Positions 41,824-52,074 of a stretch of DNA of 64,000 bases are shown in pieces. Source of the stretch: Komagataeibacter sucrofermentans DSM 15973 (GTDB lineage: Bacteria > Pseudomonadota > Alphaproteobacteria > Acetobacterales > Acetobacteraceae); the NCBI RefSeq assembly GCF_040581405.1, contig NZ_CP137157.1:204001-268000 (forward strand). The letters are read 5' to 3'. Both the position numbers and the translations under genes were made by a program. Below the pieces are notes generated by a model. That model worked only from the letters and a program-made list of their open reading frames with translations. It was not told where the DNA came from and did no database searches. Numbering within the stretch: position 1 is the first letter of the stretch; each line of letters starts with the position of its first letter.

Positions 41824-42957
41824 ATGGATAGCCGCATGATCGCCGATTTCATCCGCCGCCTGACCCGGCGCCGTTCCCCGTCGCCCGCCATCTCCCGATC
41901 CGCCATGCGGGCCTCGCGGCAGGTGATTGCGCCCAGCCCGGGCTCGGCGGCGGCCGTGGCCATTGCCACGACCACGGTCATGCCCTCGGGCCGCCTGCGT
42001 GAATATGCCCGGACAGCGCGCGCCGTGGGGCGGCTTGCGGCCATTACGGTGTGGGTGCCGCTTTCGGTCGGGTTCGAGGCGGTGCTGCTGCTCGTGCCCG
42101 GCACTGCCAAGATCCGCTGGACGCGCATGGTCTGGGGCGGGCTGTGCCTGCTTCTGTCGCTGCGCATCCGCGTGGTGGGGCGCAGGGCCGGTGGCGTGGG
42201 CGGGCGCAGGGCGCGCCAGAATGGCGAGCGGCCTGTCATCTATGTTTCCAACCACTCCACATGGCTTGACGTGCCGGTGCTCGGCACGGTGCTGCCATCG
42301 AATTTCGTGGCCAAGGGCGATATCGAGGGCTGGCCCATCATGGGGCTGGTCTCGCGCATTGGCCGCACCATATTCGTCAGCCGCCAGCGCAGCACCACGG
42401 GGCGCGAGCGCGACGAGATGCTGCACCGCCTGATGGTGGAAGGCGACAACCTGATCCTGTTCCCCGAAGGAACATCATCGGATGGCTCGCGCGTGCTGCC
42501 CTTCCTGTCCGCCTTCTTCGCCATTGCCAAGCCGCCGCGCCTGCCCAAAGGCAAGGGGCCGGTCGAGCCTGACAGCGAGGCCGCCGCCATTGCCGCCCGC
42601 CCGGGCATGACGCCGCTGATCCAGCCGGTCTCGGTCGTGTATGACGAACTCGAGGGCCTGCCGGTCAACCACGCCCGTCGCCCGGTCTTTGCGTGGTATG
42701 GCGACATGGAACTCGGGCCGCATGTGTGGCAGCTGCTCAAATGGCGCTCCATGCGCGCAACCGTGCTGCTGCACCCCGCACTCGACCCCGATGACTTTCC
42801 CAGCCGCAAGGCGCTGGCGCAGGCAGCCTGGCGGGCCGTGGCGGCAGGTGCGGCCGAACTGCGCCAGAACCAGCCCCAGCCCGAGCAGGACAGTGCCTAT
42901 GCCTGCCGCCCGCTTGCAGGCATGCTGCCGCAGGATCTTGAGCGCCACGGCGGCTGA
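41824..42957 (+). CDS. plsC: 1-acyl-sn-glycerol-3-phosphate acyltransferase (PlsC)
   Basis: The 377-residue membrane acyltransferase makes phosphatidic acid. It has the NHSTWLD motif (His144, Asp149), a GRTIFVSRQRS substrate-binding block and FPEGTSSDGSRVLPF, all PlsC/LPAAT marks. A hydrophobic segment at about residues 62-85 anchors it to the inner membrane. The basic N-terminus (SRMIADFIRRLTRRR) and long C-terminus make it longer than typical PlsC proteins (about 250). It is transcribed alone. Confidence 0.9.
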   Translation: MDSRMIADFIRRLTRRRSPSPAISRSAMRASRQVIAPSPGSAAAVAIATTTVMPSGRLREYARTARAVGRLAAITVWVPLSVGFEAVLLLVPGTAKIRWTRMVWGGLCLLLSLRIRVVGRRAGGVGGRRARQNGERPVIYVSNHSTWLDVPVLGTVLPSNFVAKGDIEGWPIMGLVSRIGRTIFVSRQRSTTGRERDEMLHRLMVEGDNLILFPEGTSSDGSRVLPFLSAFFAIAKPPRLPKGKGPVEPDSEAAAIAARPGMTPLIQPVSVVYDELEGLPVNHARRPVFAWYGDMELGPHVWQLLKWRSMRATVLLHPALDPDDFPSRKALAQAAWRAVAAGAAELRQNQPQPEQDSAYACRPLAGMLPQDLERHGG

Positions 42958-43107: not shown

Positions 43108-45366
43108 ATGCCTGCCCAGGTCAGGGAAATGATCTCACATGGCGCGGTTGGTCGTGCCGATGTTCTGGAGTTTACGGTGGATCAGCCGAAGATTAGCGCC
43201 GATGTCCTGCTTTCTGCGATGGAACAGGCCATTGATCCCATGGTCGTGATTGATGAGCATAATCTCATCATCTTCTTCAACGCGGCGGCCGAGAAGATAT
43301 GGGGCTGCTCGCGCGAAGAGGTCATGGGCCACAATGTCAGCTGCCTCGTGCCCGAACCCGAGCGCGCCAGCCATGATGGCTACATCAACCGCAACCGTGA
43401 AACCGGGATTGGCCGGATTGTCGGCACCTCGCGCGAGGTCGAATTCCGCCGGGCCAATGGCGAATATGTGTGCGGCGAGCTGTCCATCTCGCGCGTGCAG
43501 GTAAGTGACTGCGGCAAGATCTACTACATTGCCGTCATGAAGGACGTGACCGAGCCCAGCCGCCAGCGCAAGATCCTGGTGCTGCAGAATGACGTGCTTC
43601 AGGCCCTCGCCTCCGACATGAGCATACAGGAAGTGGGCGACCTCCTGTGCCGCCGGGCGGACAGTTTCGTGCCCGGCGCGGTTGGCGCGCTGATGCTGAT
43701 CGACCGCTCGCGCAAGCTTTCGGTCAGCGCCTCGCCCTCCATGCCCAAGCGCTACCGGGCAGCGCTCGACAGCATGGAACTCACCCCCGAGCAGCTTGAA
43801 ATGCTGCGCGCGAACCCCGCGGCCAGCAACACCGTGGTGTGGGATGGCTATGCCTCCCTGGCCCGCTCGCTGGGGCTGGAGCGGTGCTGTTCATCCACCA
43901 TCATCTCGCGCACGGGGCAGGTCATTGGCGTGTTCGCGCTGTACCTGCGTGGCGATGAGGTCGATCTGGCCTGGGCGCAGCGCGTGGTCTCGACCAGCAT
44001 GCCGTTCTGCGCGCTGGCCATCGAGGAGAGCGAGACGCGCCAGCATATTGCCCAGCTCTCCAATTTCGACAGCCTGACCGGGCTGCTCAACCGCACCTCG
44101 CTGCACAATATCATCGAGCGCCTGATCATGCGCGGGGGCGATAGCCAGTTCTCGCTGTTCATGGTCGATATCGACCGTTTCCGCGACATCAATGACGCGC
44201 TTGGCCATGTGAATGCCGACCGCTTCCTCATCGAGATCGGCCGCCGCATCCGCCATCTGGTCAAGGATGAATACATTGTCAGCCGCTCCGGCGGCGACGA
44301 GTTCATCATCATCGTGCCCGAATGCTCGCACGAGCGTGCCGAGAAGTTTGCCGAGAACCTGATCAACGTCATCGCCAGGCCGCTACAGGTGGGCGAGAAC
44401 ACGCTCAGCATCTCGTGCTGCGTTGGCATCAGCACCTTCCCCGCCAACGGGCCGGACAGCGAATCGCTGCTCAGCCATGCCGATGCCGCCACCCGCCAGG
44501 CCAAGGAGGACGGGCGCGGCCTGTACCGCTTTGCAGGGCAGGAAAAGAACCAGGTGGCGCAGGACCGGCTGGTGCTTGGCTCGGCGCTGCGCGATTCGCT
44601 CTCCAAGGGCATGCTCAACCTGAATTACCAGCCGCAGGTCGAGACCATGACCGGCGGGCTTTATGGCGTGGAGGCGCTCTCGCGCTGGCACCACCCCACG
44701 CTGGGCAACATCTATCCCTCCCGCTTCATCGCGGTGGCGGAGGAGACCGGCCAGATCGAGGCCATTGGCCGCTGGTCGCTTGAGGAAGCATGCAGCCAGA
44801 TGGTGAAGTGGGACCGCGACGGCGTGCGGGTGCCGACCGTGGCGGTCAACCTTTCCGCCGTGCATTTCCGCAACCGGGGCCTGCCCGAGCACATCGCCAA
44901 CCTGCTCAAGCACCATGGCCTGACGCCGGACCGCCTGACGGTGGAAATAACCGAGAGCGTGATGATGGACAGCAGCAACGAGACCGAGGAGGTGCTGCAT
45001 GCCATCCGCAGGCTCGATGTTGGCCTGTCGATGGATGATTTCGGCACGGGCTATTCATCGCTCTCGCGGCTGACCCGCCTGCCGCTGACCGAGATCAAGA
45101 TCGACCGCAGTTTCATTAACGATTTCGAGCATGATACCAACGCTCAGGCCGTGACCATGGCGGTGATCGGCATCGGCTCGCGGCTGGGCATGACGGTGGT
45201 GACCGAAGGCGTGGAAACCGAGCAGCAGTGGCGCCTTTTGGAGGAATTGCATTGCGATGTGATGCAGGGCTATCTTTTCTCCAGGCCACAGCCCCCGGCG
45301 GAACTGGAAAAATGGTTCCGTGAGCGTCAGGAGCGTGGCTCTTTCCTTATTCCAACGACGGCATAG
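43108..45366 (+). CDS. pdeA: PAS-GAF-GGDEF-EAL c-di-GMP phosphodiesterase (PdeA-like)
   Basis: This 752-residue protein resembles A. xylinum PDEA. The PAS domain (about 31-140) is close to E. coli DosP PAS-A and has His89 (PERASHDGYINRN) at the haem-ligand position. A GAF-like region spans about 165-310. The GGDEF domain (SRSGGDEF, about 394) has no I-site. The EAL domain is intact: VEALSRW (about 521), AVNLSAVHF, VEITESVMM, SMDDFGTGYSS, EIKIDRSF and VTEGVETEQQ. It should hydrolyse c-di-GMP, with gas or redox control. Starts at 43129 (ATG) and 43177 (GTG) are also possible. First gene of the operon. Confidence 0.92.
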   Translation: MPAQVREMISHGAVGRADVLEFTVDQPKISADVLLSAMEQAIDPMVVIDEHNLIIFFNAAAEKIWGCSREEVMGHNVSCLVPEPERASHDGYINRNRETGIGRIVGTSREVEFRRANGEYVCGELSISRVQVSDCGKIYYIAVMKDVTEPSRQRKILVLQNDVLQALASDMSIQEVGDLLCRRADSFVPGAVGALMLIDRSRKLSVSASPSMPKRYRAALDSMELTPEQLEMLRANPAASNTVVWDGYASLARSLGLERCCSSTIISRTGQVIGVFALYLRGDEVDLAWAQRVVSTSMPFCALAIEESETRQHIAQLSNFDSLTGLLNRTSLHNIIERLIMRGGDSQFSLFMVDIDRFRDINDALGHVNADRFLIEIGRRIRHLVKDEYIVSRSGGDEFIIIVPECSHERAEKFAENLINVIARPLQVGENTLSISCCVGISTFPANGPDSESLLSHADAATRQAKEDGRGLYRFAGQEKNQVAQDRLVLGSALRDSLSKGMLNLNYQPQVETMTGGLYGVEALSRWHHPTLGNIYPSRFIAVAEETGQIEAIGRWSLEEACSQMVKWDRDGVRVPTVAVNLSAVHFRNRGLPEHIANLLKHHGLTPDRLTVEITESVMMDSSNETEEVLHAIRRLDVGLSMDDFGTGYSSLSRLTRLPLTEIKIDRSFINDFEHDTNAQAVTMAVIGIGSRLGMTVVTEGVETEQQWRLLEELHCDVMQGYLFSRPQPPAELEKWFRERQERGSFLIPTTA

Positions 45367-45374
45367 ACCCTATG

Positions 45375-45399
45375 GCTTTCCGCGCGGTGCGCGGGAAGC
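45375..45399. promoter_or_regulatory. Intercistronic stem-loop between pde and dgc
   Basis: GCTTTCCGCGC (45375-45385) pairs with GCGCGGGAAGC (45389-45399) across a three-base loop with one G-T pair. It lies just after the phosphodiesterase stop codon and 57 bases before the cyclase gene, with no T-run. Such hairpins often stabilise the upstream message or set the ratio of two co-transcribed genes. Confidence 0.5.
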
Positions 45400-45456
45400 A
45401 GTTTGAGTTCATGAAGCATAACAGTTTGTTTTTCATTACGGATTCCAGGCGGGAAC

Positions 45457-47181
45457 ATGGCATTGCAACACGATGATCGGCTGCGGGCCCTGACGCACCA
45501 GGATGCGGATTTCTGGGCTGATCTGGTTGATAATGTCCTGATCGTCGCAATTACGGATAGCGAGGGGGTCATCACCTATGTCAATGACCGCTTCTGCGAG
45601 ATAAGCCAGTACTCGCGCGAGGAACTGGTGGGGTCGACGCACCGGATCGTCAATTCCGGCTATCATGATGCCGATTTCTTCCGGGATCTGTACCGCACCA
45701 TCAAGGCGGGGCAGCTGTGGCGCGGCAATATCTGCAATCGCGCCAAGGATGGGTCGCTGTACTGGGTGGCCACCACCATCATCCCCAAGACCGACCGGCA
45801 GGGCACGATTACGGGGTACGTGGCCAGCCGGTTCGAGATTACCGAACTCATGAACACGCGCGACCGGCTGTGTGAACTGGCCGAGACCGATACCCTGACC
45901 GGCCTGCTCAACCGGGGTGGCTTCAACACCGCGCTCGCTGATGAGATCGCGCGCTGCCGCGAGCCGGGCATGACCGCCCACCCGGCACTGGCCATGTTCG
46001 ACCTTGATGGCTTCAAGCAGATCAATGACGTGCACGGCCACCATGCGGGTGACATCGTGCTGCGCGCCATCGCCTCGCGGCTGATTGAACTCACCCACCC
46101 TGATGATCCGGTCAGCCGGCTGGGTGGTGACGAGTTTGCCGTCATCCTGCACCGCACGCTCGAGGATGTATCGCTTGAGCGGTACATGGACCGCCTGCAG
46201 GCCATTCTTGAACGCCCCATCGATATCGAGACGGTCACTGTCAGCGTGGCAGGCAGTATTGGCGCCGTGCTGCTCGATGGCACCGACACGATGGAAGACG
46301 TGCAGAAAAACGCCGACATGGCGATGTATGCCGCCAAGCGCGCGGGCGGCAAGCAGTCGCAGATGTTCACCAAGAACCTGCGCGAGCGCGCGCAGGCGCG
46401 TGTTTCCATTCTCAGCGAGGCGCGGTGCGGTGTCGAGCGCAACCAGTTCGAGGTCTATTACCAGCCGATCGTGAACTGCAACACGATGCAGGTGGACCAG
46501 ATCGAGGCGCTGCTGCGCTGGCAGCACCCCGAGCGCGGCCTGCTCGCGGCGGAAGACTTCTCCGACGTGTTTACCGATGCGGGGCTGGCCCAGGCGATGG
46601 GCCCGCGCATGATCGAGGCCTTCAGGCGCGATGTGCACATGTGGAACGAAAAGGGCCAGCCGCCCCGCCAGCTTGCCATCAACCTTTCGCGCATGGACCT
46701 GATCCGCGATGACTACCAGCGCGAACTTGAGGAATCGCTGCGGCGCTTCAACATGTCGCCTGACAGCTTCGTGCTGGAAGTAACCGAGACCATGCTGCAT
46801 GGCCGCAGGGCCGAGCAGGGCATCCGCAACCTGCGTGAACTGGCGCGGGCGGGGTTCCGTATCGCGCTCGATAATTTTGGCAAGGGCATCACGGTGCTGA
46901 ATCACCTGCGTGAGCTGCCGTTCTCGCAGGTCAAGATCGACCAGAGCATGGTGGCGAACATCGTGGGCAATCCCGATGCCTGCATGGTCCTGTCCAGCCT
47001 GATCGACATGGGGCAGGGCTTCAACATGGAAGTTACGGTCGAAGGTGTTGAAAACCGCGAGCAGTTTGAGCTCGTCAAGGCGCTCAAACCCGAACGCATC
47101 CAGGGCTTCTTTATCTCCTCGGCGCTGTCCTCGCAGGATATTCTCAAGCTGCCCGAGCGTTTTGAAGGGGTCACGCTGTGA
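45457..47181 (+). CDS. dgc: PAS-GGDEF-EAL diguanylate cyclase (AxDGC-like)
   Basis: This 574-residue protein resembles the A. xylinum diguanylate cyclases. An N-terminal PAS domain (about 20-130) has NICNRAKDGSLYWVATTI, as in NifL/Aer flavin-binding domains. The GGDEF domain (about 145-310) is intact (SRLGGDEFAVI, about 222). The place of the I-site Arg is taken by His (HPDD), so product inhibition may be absent. The EAL domain keeps IEALLRW, KIDQS and VTVEGVEN, but loop 6 is LDNFGKGIT instead of DDFGTGYS, so it is probably not an active phosphodiesterase. A third gene overlaps its stop. Confidence 0.92.
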   Translation: MALQHDDRLRALTHQDADFWADLVDNVLIVAITDSEGVITYVNDRFCEISQYSREELVGSTHRIVNSGYHDADFFRDLYRTIKAGQLWRGNICNRAKDGSLYWVATTIIPKTDRQGTITGYVASRFEITELMNTRDRLCELAETDTLTGLLNRGGFNTALADEIARCREPGMTAHPALAMFDLDGFKQINDVHGHHAGDIVLRAIASRLIELTHPDDPVSRLGGDEFAVILHRTLEDVSLERYMDRLQAILERPIDIETVTVSVAGSIGAVLLDGTDTMEDVQKNADMAMYAAKRAGGKQSQMFTKNLRERAQARVSILSEARCGVERNQFEVYYQPIVNCNTMQVDQIEALLRWQHPERGLLAAEDFSDVFTDAGLAQAMGPRMIEAFRRDVHMWNEKGQPPRQLAINLSRMDLIRDDYQRELEESLRRFNMSPDSFVLEVTETMLHGRRAEQGIRNLRELARAGFRIALDNFGKGITVLNHLRELPFSQVKIDQSMVANIVGNPDACMVLSSLIDMGQGFNMEVTVEGVENREQFELVKALKPERIQGFFISSALSSQDILKLPERFEGVTL

Positions 47182-47627
47182 GTGATGATGTACTCCGCAC
47201 GGTGGCCGCGCGCATTGGCGATGACCTGCCGCGCGTGGACGTGATTGGCCTGGCCAATACGCGGCGCATCATGCATGCGGAGCGACATAATGATGGCTCG
47301 CGCATGCCGCTGTTCATTCCCGCGGCCTCATGGGCGCGGTTGCTGGAACTGCATTGCACGGGCGAGAACGACGGGCCACGCCTTGCGCCTTCACGCGTCA
47401 TGGACGGGCTGGAGCGCGCCCTTGGCCGCATCATGACCGAGGTGGTGCGCCATGACGCGGCGCATGATGAACCGCTGCGCCCGGCCTATGAAGTGACATC
47501 CGACCTGTTCGGGCCGGAAGGGCCGGTTGATATCCGCATGCTTGTTGACCGCACGACCGGCGTGGCCTGCATGTTGGCCGGACCACCTGCGGATATTGCG
47601 GCGCTGCATCTTGAGGCCGACATTTAA
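47178..47627 (+). CDS. Unknown protein coupled to the c-di-GMP operon, 149 aa
   Basis: The GTG start overlaps the cyclase stop codon (GTGA), so translation is coupled. The product (VSDDVLRTVAARIGDDLPRV) is soluble and has no signal peptide. Visible segments are RIMHAERHNDGSRMPLFIPA, the GPRLAPSRVMDGLERALGRI helix and a C-terminal beta region (GPVDIRMLVDRTTGVACMLA). No c-di-GMP-binding PilZ motif is present. Its fixed position suggests a role tied to the pde/dgc pair. Confidence 0.7.
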   Translation: MSDDVLRTVAARIGDDLPRVDVIGLANTRRIMHAERHNDGSRMPLFIPAASWARLLELHCTGENDGPRLAPSRVMDGLERALGRIMTEVVRHDAAHDEPLRPAYEVTSDLFGPEGPVDIRMLVDRTTGVACMLAGPPADIAALHLEADI

Positions 47628-47628
47628 T

Positions 47629-47691
47629 TATAAAAAGCTGCAGGAACGCGCTTTTTTGTAAGAATTAAGGCGGCGCTGCAAAACTTTTATC
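47629..47691. repeat. Dispersed palindromic intergenic repeat, copy 10 (degenerate)
   Basis: A degenerate copy: ATAAAAAGCTGCAGGAACGC, then TTTTTTGTAAGAATTAAGGC, then GGCGCTGCAAAACTTTTATC. It closes the c-di-GMP operon and touches the end of the convergent lipoprotein gene. Confidence 0.6.
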
Positions 47692-51229: not shown

Positions 51230-51303
51230 GTCCCCTAGCCTATCGGCTTTCCTCACGGGGTCAATCGAAAGTACGCGCCAACCGCGGGAGCAGGATGATT
51301 TCA

Positions 51304-51993
51304 ATGGGCAGCACGCCAGGCCAGTCAGGCAAAATGCAGGCCGATGAGAGCCTGCCCCCGGGTGCCTCCGCCGCCAAGCGCCAGCAGATCCTCGCCGGTG
51401 CCGCGCGTGTCTTTGCCCAGAATGGCTACGAGGGGGCCAGCATGTCGGGCATCGCGCGGGATGCCGGGGTGTCGAAGGGCACGCTGTACAATTACTTTGA
51501 CAGCAAGGCCACGCTGTTCTCCGCCTTTGTCGAGCAGTGCGCGTGCGAGAAGATGCCGCTCCTGTTCAGCCGCATTGATGAAGGGGCGAACCTGACGGAA
51601 TCGCTCGAGCATCTGGCCGTGGCCATGATCCGGCTGCTCACCTCGCCGCTGTCGCTCATGCTCAACCGCATCATCATCTCCGAGGCGGGCAATTTTCCCG
51701 AACTGGCCGAGACATTCTGGAAGCACGGGCCGCAGAAGGCCATCAACATCCTCTCGGCGTGGCTGATGCAGCACAATAATTCCGGTGTGCTGAACATTCC
51801 CGACCCGGTTTTTGCCGCCGAGCAGTTCTACGCCCTGTGCCAGACCCGCATTACCGCCCGCTCGCGCCTGCAACTGCCGGTCAGTACCGATCAGGCGCAT
51901 ATTGATTTCATCGCGCGTTCGGCGGTGCGTACCTTCCTCAACGCCTATCTGCGCGAAGGCCCGCGCCTGCCGCCGGTGGTGATGGAGGGATAA
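51304..51993 (+). CDS. TetR/AcrR-family transcriptional regulator
   Basis: The product of about 229 residues has an N-terminal TetR helix-turn-helix (RQQILAGAARVFAQNGYEGA, then SMSGIARDAGVSKGTLYNYF). A helical ligand-binding C-terminal domain follows, with an AefR-like tail (FYALCQTRITARSRLQLPVS). AGGA lies eight bases before the ATG at 51304; the ATG at 51295 has a worse spacing. It faces the NodT outer-membrane factor gene across two palindromes and probably represses it until an effector binds. Confidence 0.9.
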   Translation: MGSTPGQSGKMQADESLPPGASAAKRQQILAGAARVFAQNGYEGASMSGIARDAGVSKGTLYNYFDSKATLFSAFVEQCACEKMPLLFSRIDEGANLTESLEHLAVAMIRLLTSPLSLMLNRIIISEAGNFPELAETFWKHGPQKAINILSAWLMQHNNSGVLNIPDPVFAAEQFYALCQTRITARSRLQLPVSTDQAHIDFIARSAVRTFLNAYLREGPRLPPVVMEG

Positions 51994-52040
51994 AGGCGGG
52001 TTCTGGCAGGGCGTTTTGAAAAAAACTGCCCCAAGATGTT

Positions 52041-52074
<34 letters not shown>

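Follow-up and report, generated by a model that had tools for sequence, protein, structure and literature searches.

The cdg operons of Acetobacter xylinum, which control cyclic di-GMP (c-di-GMP), were reportedly described by Tal et al. in 1998. In Escherichia coli, the opposed diguanylate cyclase (DGC) and phosphodiesterase (PDE) of the DosC-DosP pair work with oxygen-type sensing, and the sensor of DosC is a globin. Two papers describe the A. xylinum cdg operons as having pde upstream of dgc, with both genes encoding PAS-GGDEF-EAL proteins and with three operons per genome (PMC6559022, PMC6667682). According to PMC6667682 and PMC4646962, the cdg1 operon has a CRP/FNR gene upstream and a single Rrf2 gene, cdg1d, downstream. 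In this work, a stretch of 64,000 nt of contig NZ_CP137157.1 (the window) from a Komagataeibacter genome of 3.44 Mb in 5 contigs was analysed, and coordinates are given in window numbering. The subject is an operon of the window that consists of pde, dgc and a third gene, here called X (Table 1).

Judged by its sequence, the pde-dgc pair of the window is of the cdg operon kind long known from A. xylinum and Komagataeibacter. It is a textbook c-di-GMP system in the bacterial group where the messenger was discovered. What is new is that one of the three operons of the genome carries a gene, X, whose family also occurs in genomes that lack GGDEF and EAL proteins. The reading that we prefer, with a probability of about 0.6, is that X is a migrant that moved once to the known cdg pair, keeps an old role independent of GGDEF and EAL proteins and takes only its expression from the operon.

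Comparison with known c-di-GMP operons

The window operon shares with the A. xylinum cdg operons the position of pde directly 5' of dgc in the same orientation, the PAS-GGDEF-EAL make-up of both products and the number of three operons per genome. Two further sites in the genome encode a DGC that is 56% identical to the DGC of the window, with a PDE of 66-67% identity encoded upstream, which gives three pde-dgc operons. The gene order and the domain make-up agree with the original prediction, made from the window alone, in which a sensor PDE and a sensor DGC are paired as in A. xylinum. X accompanies only the window operon among the three.

One of the other two operons (locus L048) is flanked by a CRP/FNR gene on its upstream side and by two Rrf2 genes on its downstream side. 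Because these genes flank the L048 operon, the window operon is one of the other two and not cdg1. The window operon has an acyltransferase gene upstream and X downstream instead of CRP/FNR and Rrf2 genes. The two Rrf2 genes at L048:5168-6329 (minus strand) lie in tandem after the cdg1 operon of this genome, compared with one (cdg1d) in the papers.

Three such DGCs were found in each of 14 Komagataeibacter genomes and two in each of 3 genomes of genus g113. K. hansenii strains without PdeA1 and Dgc1 are described in PMC6528568. The two DGCs per g113 genome agree with that description, and g113 is therefore probably the Novacetimonas group.

The sensor types predicted for the window proteins are the same as those published for AxPDEA1 (haem-PAS PDE) and AxDGC2 (FAD-PAS DGC), and the published biochemistry is that of other members of the family. 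The window operon also resembles E. coli DosC-DosP in having an opposed DGC and PDE, and DosP is the best match of the window PDE PAS domain. It differs in that the window PDE falls below the DosP cut-off and in that the predicted sensor of the window DGC is a flavin-type PAS domain and not a globin.

Predicted activities and sensors of the two enzymes

Pfam identified EAL (1.4e-71), GGDEF (5.5e-38) and PAS domains in the pde product, with a weak GAF match between them that is under the GAF cut-off. All the EAL signature motifs that were sought (EAL, NLS, EITE, DDFGTG, KID, EGVE, and QGY) are present, and the GGDEF signature is also intact. The PAS domain has DosP as its best match (E 1.8e-26) and also matches FixL (2.2e-20). 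The histidine of DosP that aligns with His89 of the PDE (Table 1) is presumably the axial haem ligand. The relation to DosP and FixL and the aligned histidine support a haem-type PAS domain, for which haem binding and inhibition by O2 are predicted. The NCBIfam DosP model scored 699 bits, under its curated cut-off of 857, and the PDE is therefore not classed as DosP.

The dgc product has PAS, GGDEF and EAL domains in tandem. Its PAS domain matches 3ewk most closely (1.5e-45), which we take to be the flavin PAS protein MmoS, followed by an aerotaxis receptor (4.8e-20) and 2gj3 (1.5e-9), presumably NifL; the NCBIfam NifL model matches at 7.7e-16. It also matches the LOV domains of phototropins (4.3e-11), but the column of the LOV cysteine is His in the DGC. 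These matches support the assignment of a PAS domain of the flavin type that would be kin to MmoS, Aer and NifL and has no LOV cysteine. The GGDEF motif of the DGC is intact and its EAL domain has DNFGKG instead of DDFG. DNFG is also found in the DGC of L047; the DGC of L048 has DDFG but is without the KID and EGVE motifs. Given the intact EAL domain of the PDE and the DNFG of the DGC, the upstream enzyme is likely a PDE and the downstream enzyme a DGC. Both the opposite activities (EAL intact in the PDE and degenerate in the DGC, GGDEF intact in the DGC) and the pairing of a haem-like with a flavin-like PAS domain (DosP and FixL versus 3ewk, aerotaxis receptor and NifL) had been predicted originally, and the motifs and matches point the same way.

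The haem-PAS PDE and the flavin-PAS DGC would read oxygen and redox state and jointly set c-di-GMP for the cellulose synthase. By analogy with the published work on AxPDEA1 and AxDGC2 as related in later papers, O2 and oxidised flavin would raise c-di-GMP.

Gene X and its junction with dgc

The three co-oriented open reading frames (ORFs) of the original prediction and the overlap of X with dgc are seen directly in the sequence. The GTG start of X lies at 47178 and the TGA stop of dgc at 47179-47181, which gives GTGA with a 4-nt overlap, and translation of X is probably coupled to dgc through it. X was present in 18/18 congeners and is single copy in the genome of the window. The dgc-X order was also found in 18/18 congeners with pde upstream in all, where one contig (G017) ends within pde. 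The junction in this genome and the 18 congeners is a 4-nt overlap in 15/19, an 8-nt overlap in two and an 11-nt gap in one. In the remaining genome (G005), dgc carries an in-frame TAG, X is still open and the junction is undefined. Besides the GTG starts, ATG starts of X also overlap the dgc stop. The gap between dgc and X is 3 nt and 8 nt in two loci of g113.

The median dN/dS of X is 0.12 (19 sequences, 171 pairs). For dgc it is 0.07 (18 sequences, 153 pairs, with G005 excluded because of the in-frame stop), and for pde it is 0.14 (19 sequences including one contig-end fragment, 171 pairs). X is kept in all congeners with low dN/dS, and it is therefore a real gene under purifying selection.

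The conservation of this junction bears on an explanation in which X was recruited after its move as a small partner that binds the DGC and/or the PDE. Translational coupling would keep its ratio to the enzymes fixed, and X would tune the pair or determine where it is located. The overlap of 4 or 8 nt in 17/19 and the dgc-X order in 18/18 congeners and three g113 genomes favour such recruitment, as does the absence of X from the other two cdg operons, one of which, cdg1, comes with accessory genes of its own (CRP/FNR and Rrf2). X accompanies the window pair in 18/18 congeners and only one of the three operons of its own genome, which makes a later recruitment into c-di-GMP control possible. 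The G005 genome, with its interrupted dgc and open X, speaks against it. Taken with the evidence on fold and rate below, we regard recruitment as possible but rather unlikely.

Domain and fold searches with X

Pfam and NCBIfam scans of X gave no match at all; that X has no PilZ or other known c-di-GMP domain is as the original prediction had it. Among 47 members of the X family, Pfam gave scattered weak matches only (best E 0.014) and NCBIfam one weak SseB match in one member (E 0.073). The PDB sequence profile search gave one chance-like match (E 0.73). A named function for X by profile was rejected because only these weak scattered matches were obtained.

The AlphaFold2 model of X is an alpha/beta protein (pLDDT 82.1, pTM 0.76) with the element order helix, strand, strand, two helices, three strands and helix. 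This predicted order resembles that of the Roadblock/LC7 and PAS (profilin-like) folds, with weak structural matches. The weak rows include several Ragulator, Ego3, MglB and PAS chains, and no fold match was convincing among them. The model gives a weak lead that X may have an adaptor fold of the roadblock or profilin type. An X without a known c-di-GMP domain or a convincing fold match counts against recruitment as a partner of the two enzymes. No description of X was found in the titles or abstract openings of the open-licence literature that was searched.

Distribution and genomic homes of the X family

The X profile was built from both the dgc-linked and the other members and was used with a cut-off of E 0.001. 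It identified X in 63/397 genomes of the family Acetobacteraceae and 15/102 genera, with a single X per genome. All 63 score E 7e-31 or better, where the E values of the rows used to build the profile hold by construction. The class-wide search found X in 2/385 genomes, and both are Acetobacteraceae. The 63 genomes consist of 14 Komagataeibacter and 3 g113 genomes, where X lies 3' of dgc, and 46 others. The nearest named relatives of X are from Komagataeibacter species. One candidate outside Acetobacteraceae (G074) was rejected as a chance match: the single-protein search aligned 61 residues within a 997-aa frame at E 2.6e-4, and the profile found no match in this genome.

The genomic context outside Komagataeibacter and g113 was compared in 55 loci, consisting of 23 of the 46 other genomes and 32 named loci (Gluconobacter, Bombella, Neokomagataea, and others), where some loci are the same genome counted twice. 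An M29 aminopeptidase gene is adjacent to X or one gene off in 55/55 loci, a CtrA-like regulator gene is found in 49 and fliI in 25. In none of the 55 loci did the 12-20 kb fetched around X give a pde or dgc match at E 1e-3. The X family therefore has two genomic homes, and the M29-neighbour-X cluster of Gluconobacter, Bombella and Neokomagataea differs from the window operon in having the same X family with no pde or dgc there. The expectation that X stays beside pde-dgc pairs held in Komagataeibacter (18/18 congeners) and g113 and failed elsewhere, where X is on the M29 side in 55/55. The original prediction had also proposed X as an undescribed c-di-GMP component; as a statement about its origin this is contradicted by the homologues, which lie away from c-di-GMP genes outside the two genera.

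The M29 aminopeptidase, its neighbour and X (L049:7671-9840) form a conserved cluster that is also found in Gluconobacter, Bombella and others and is kept in small genomes. The M29 neighbour has no Pfam match and, on visual inspection, seems to carry a signal peptide; it was not found at the Bombella loci.

X in genomes without GGDEF and EAL

The presence of GGDEF and EAL was tested in 24 of the 46 other X genomes, among which small genomes were favoured on purpose. No GGDEF was found in 14/24 (11 from g33 and 3 from g141, all rated 100% complete), and no EAL was found in the same 14 genomes. The other 10/24 have 1 to 8 GGDEF matches. The genome of the window has 15 GGDEF and 16 EAL matches, and the 14 control genomes gave matches to GGDEF in 8 and to EAL in 6. 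Since X occurs in 14 genomes rated complete that have neither domain, the job of the X family needs no GGDEF or EAL proteins. Together with the M29 context in 55/55 loci, this argues that X did not arise as a c-di-GMP component.

The same counts bear on the explanation that X is a dedicated c-di-GMP effector or regulator by origin. It can draw on the stable place of X beside one pde-dgc pair in Komagataeibacter and on the 10/24 tested genomes that do have GGDEF proteins. The 14 complete genomes with X and without GGDEF and EAL, and the place of X away from pde and dgc in 55/55 loci outside the two genera, make such an origin very improbable.

History and rate of X

The tree has 63 rows, and in it the 17 dgc-linked X group on a single branch with support of 100/100. 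A single origin of the dgc-linked X is well supported. The deep placement of this branch is unsure because long branches attract, as the program warned. The identity between the two X groups is only 24-36%, and 18 columns are invariant over both.

This divergence, with the very long stem of the branch, would also suit two unrelated families or a horizontal replacement that only looks like relocation. However, the joint profile finds all 63 genomes (E 7e-31 or better) with the 18 columns invariant over both groups, a single Komagataeibacter X as query reaches other genera with E down to 1.5e-16, and each of the listed genomes carries just one X. We consider two families or replacement improbable.

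In the genome of the window, two g113 genomes and three g83 genomes, M29 and its neighbour stand together, and the stretch fetched around them contains neither X nor CtrA nor the rest of the old neighbours. The g83 genomes have a DGC at 46-49% that lacks an adjacent PDE, and g83 is not among the matches of the X profile. In the simplest history, the old locus fell apart, X moved 3' of dgc in the line of Komagataeibacter and g113, and X was lost in g83. A single move, in the common ancestor of Komagataeibacter and a sister genus, would have placed X directly 3' of dgc. X would retain its old cytosolic role, in keeping with the 18 invariant columns that outlast the move, and take only its expression from the operon.

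The rate ratio was calculated as the mean -ln identity between the lineage of the window and other genera divided by that among other genera, with 12 chosen non-Komagataeibacter loci (11 for thiD). The ratios are 1.65 for X, 1.83 for the M29 neighbour, 1.68 for CtrA, 1.24 for M29, 1.13 for glmM and 0.98 for thiD. The faster rate of X was rejected as proof that it has taken on a role in c-di-GMP control, because CtrA and the M29 neighbour are faster too. That X, the M29 neighbour and CtrA are fast together fits X still belonging with the old module. For recruitment, the long stem followed by strong constraint on X is a point in favour. The core residues of the X family are nevertheless kept (18 invariant columns), and the acceleration is common to CtrA and the M29 neighbour, neither of which moved to the window operon.

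The CtrA-like regulator by the old X locus (L049:5008-5793, minus strand; L083:6459-7250, plus strand, in the genome of the window; 50 loci) has a changed phosphoacceptor Asp column. Of the 50 loci, 48 show this column, which is Glu in 44 and Ala in 4, where some genomes are counted twice. Alignment of the regulator to a response regulator of known structure gives the same D to E change. Such a change can have a phosphomimetic-like effect in response regulators. The CtrA-like regulator of acetic acid bacteria would be naturally phosphomimetic-like. The literature search by titles and abstract openings found no paper on a natural D-to-E CtrA in these bacteria.

Role of X in the operon

X is probably no dedicated component of the c-di-GMP switch. 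Several points weigh against our reading of X as a passive migrant on a known pair. The dgc overlap in 17/19 and the retention of X through two genera, in which dgc identity falls as low as 72%, go beyond what a mere passenger would need. A very long stem (3.67 changes per column) leads to the dgc-linked X, and the function of X may have changed along it. The context covers only half (23/46) of the other X genomes. The claim of absence in the 14 genomes covers GGDEF and EAL, and HD-GYP phosphodiesterases were not searched for. On the side of the enzymes, PMC13068021 states for Komagataeibacter that PDE activity goes up and c-di-GMP goes down at high oxygen, opposite to the direction of the switch proposed above.

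A bolder and tentative idea, which we think unlikely, is that X of the M29 aminopeptidase and CtrA-side module was captured and became a stoichiometric, coupled partner of the O2/redox PDE-DGC pair in the cellulose-producing genera. If so, the PDE-DGC pair would now carry input from the old M29/CtrA-side module. X that overlaps dgc, set against X that lies away from c-di-GMP genes in Gluconobacter and Bombella, provides a clean natural test. The case of X also warns against naming genes as c-di-GMP components by their neighbourhood.

Operon layout and neighbouring features

The features of the operon and its surroundings are shown in Table 1.

Table 1. Features of the pde-dgc-X operon and its surroundings in window numbering.
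Feature	Position	Strand	Description
acyltransferase	41824-42957	+	Pfam Acyltransferase 2.2e-19; precedes pde; possibly co-transcribed
pde	43108-45366	+	752 aa; PAS (haem type)-GGDEF-EAL; predicted O2-sensing c-di-GMP phosphodiesterase
His89 codon of PDE (cat)	43372-43374	+	aligned with the histidine of DosP RPAHPEY
pde-dgc intercistronic stretch	45367-45456	+	strong hairpin possible at 45375-45399, plus second stem
dgc	45457-47181	+	574 aa; PAS (flavin type)-GGDEF-degenerate EAL; predicted redox-sensing diguanylate cyclase
X	47178-47627	+	149 aa; GTG start; alpha/beta protein of an Acetobacteraceae family without Pfam or NCBIfam name
A/T-rich stem, then T run, 3' of X	47628-47660	+	candidate transcript end
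ORF 3' of the operon	51295-51993		TetR-type regulator look, judged by eye
TGCC repeat	52040-52074		perfect tetranucleotide repeat, 8.8 copies

The acyltransferase, presumably of the PlsC type, is encoded 5' of pde in 17/18 congeners (in two pieces in G012; in the remaining congener the contig ends) and in both g113 loci examined. It keeps its place upstream of pde, and the operon may therefore include it as a fourth gene.

The stretch between pde and dgc folds at -32.5 kcal/mol (z -3.1), and the terminator scan lists it as terminator-like. The hairpin could be an attenuator or a processing site that separates pde from dgc-X. It has little covariation support: in 6 chosen relatives, 1/27 pairs changed on both sides, some are broken and the covariation term is 0.14. 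The middle of the hairpin differs in length between close relatives. The stem 3' of X folds at -8.3 kcal/mol (z -1.4), and 19/200 shuffles were equally stable. It is absent from the terminator-scan list of the window and is therefore a weak candidate for the end of the transcript.

Further downstream, the TGCC repeat lies directly 3' of the ORF with the TetR-type look and is a possible slippage site.

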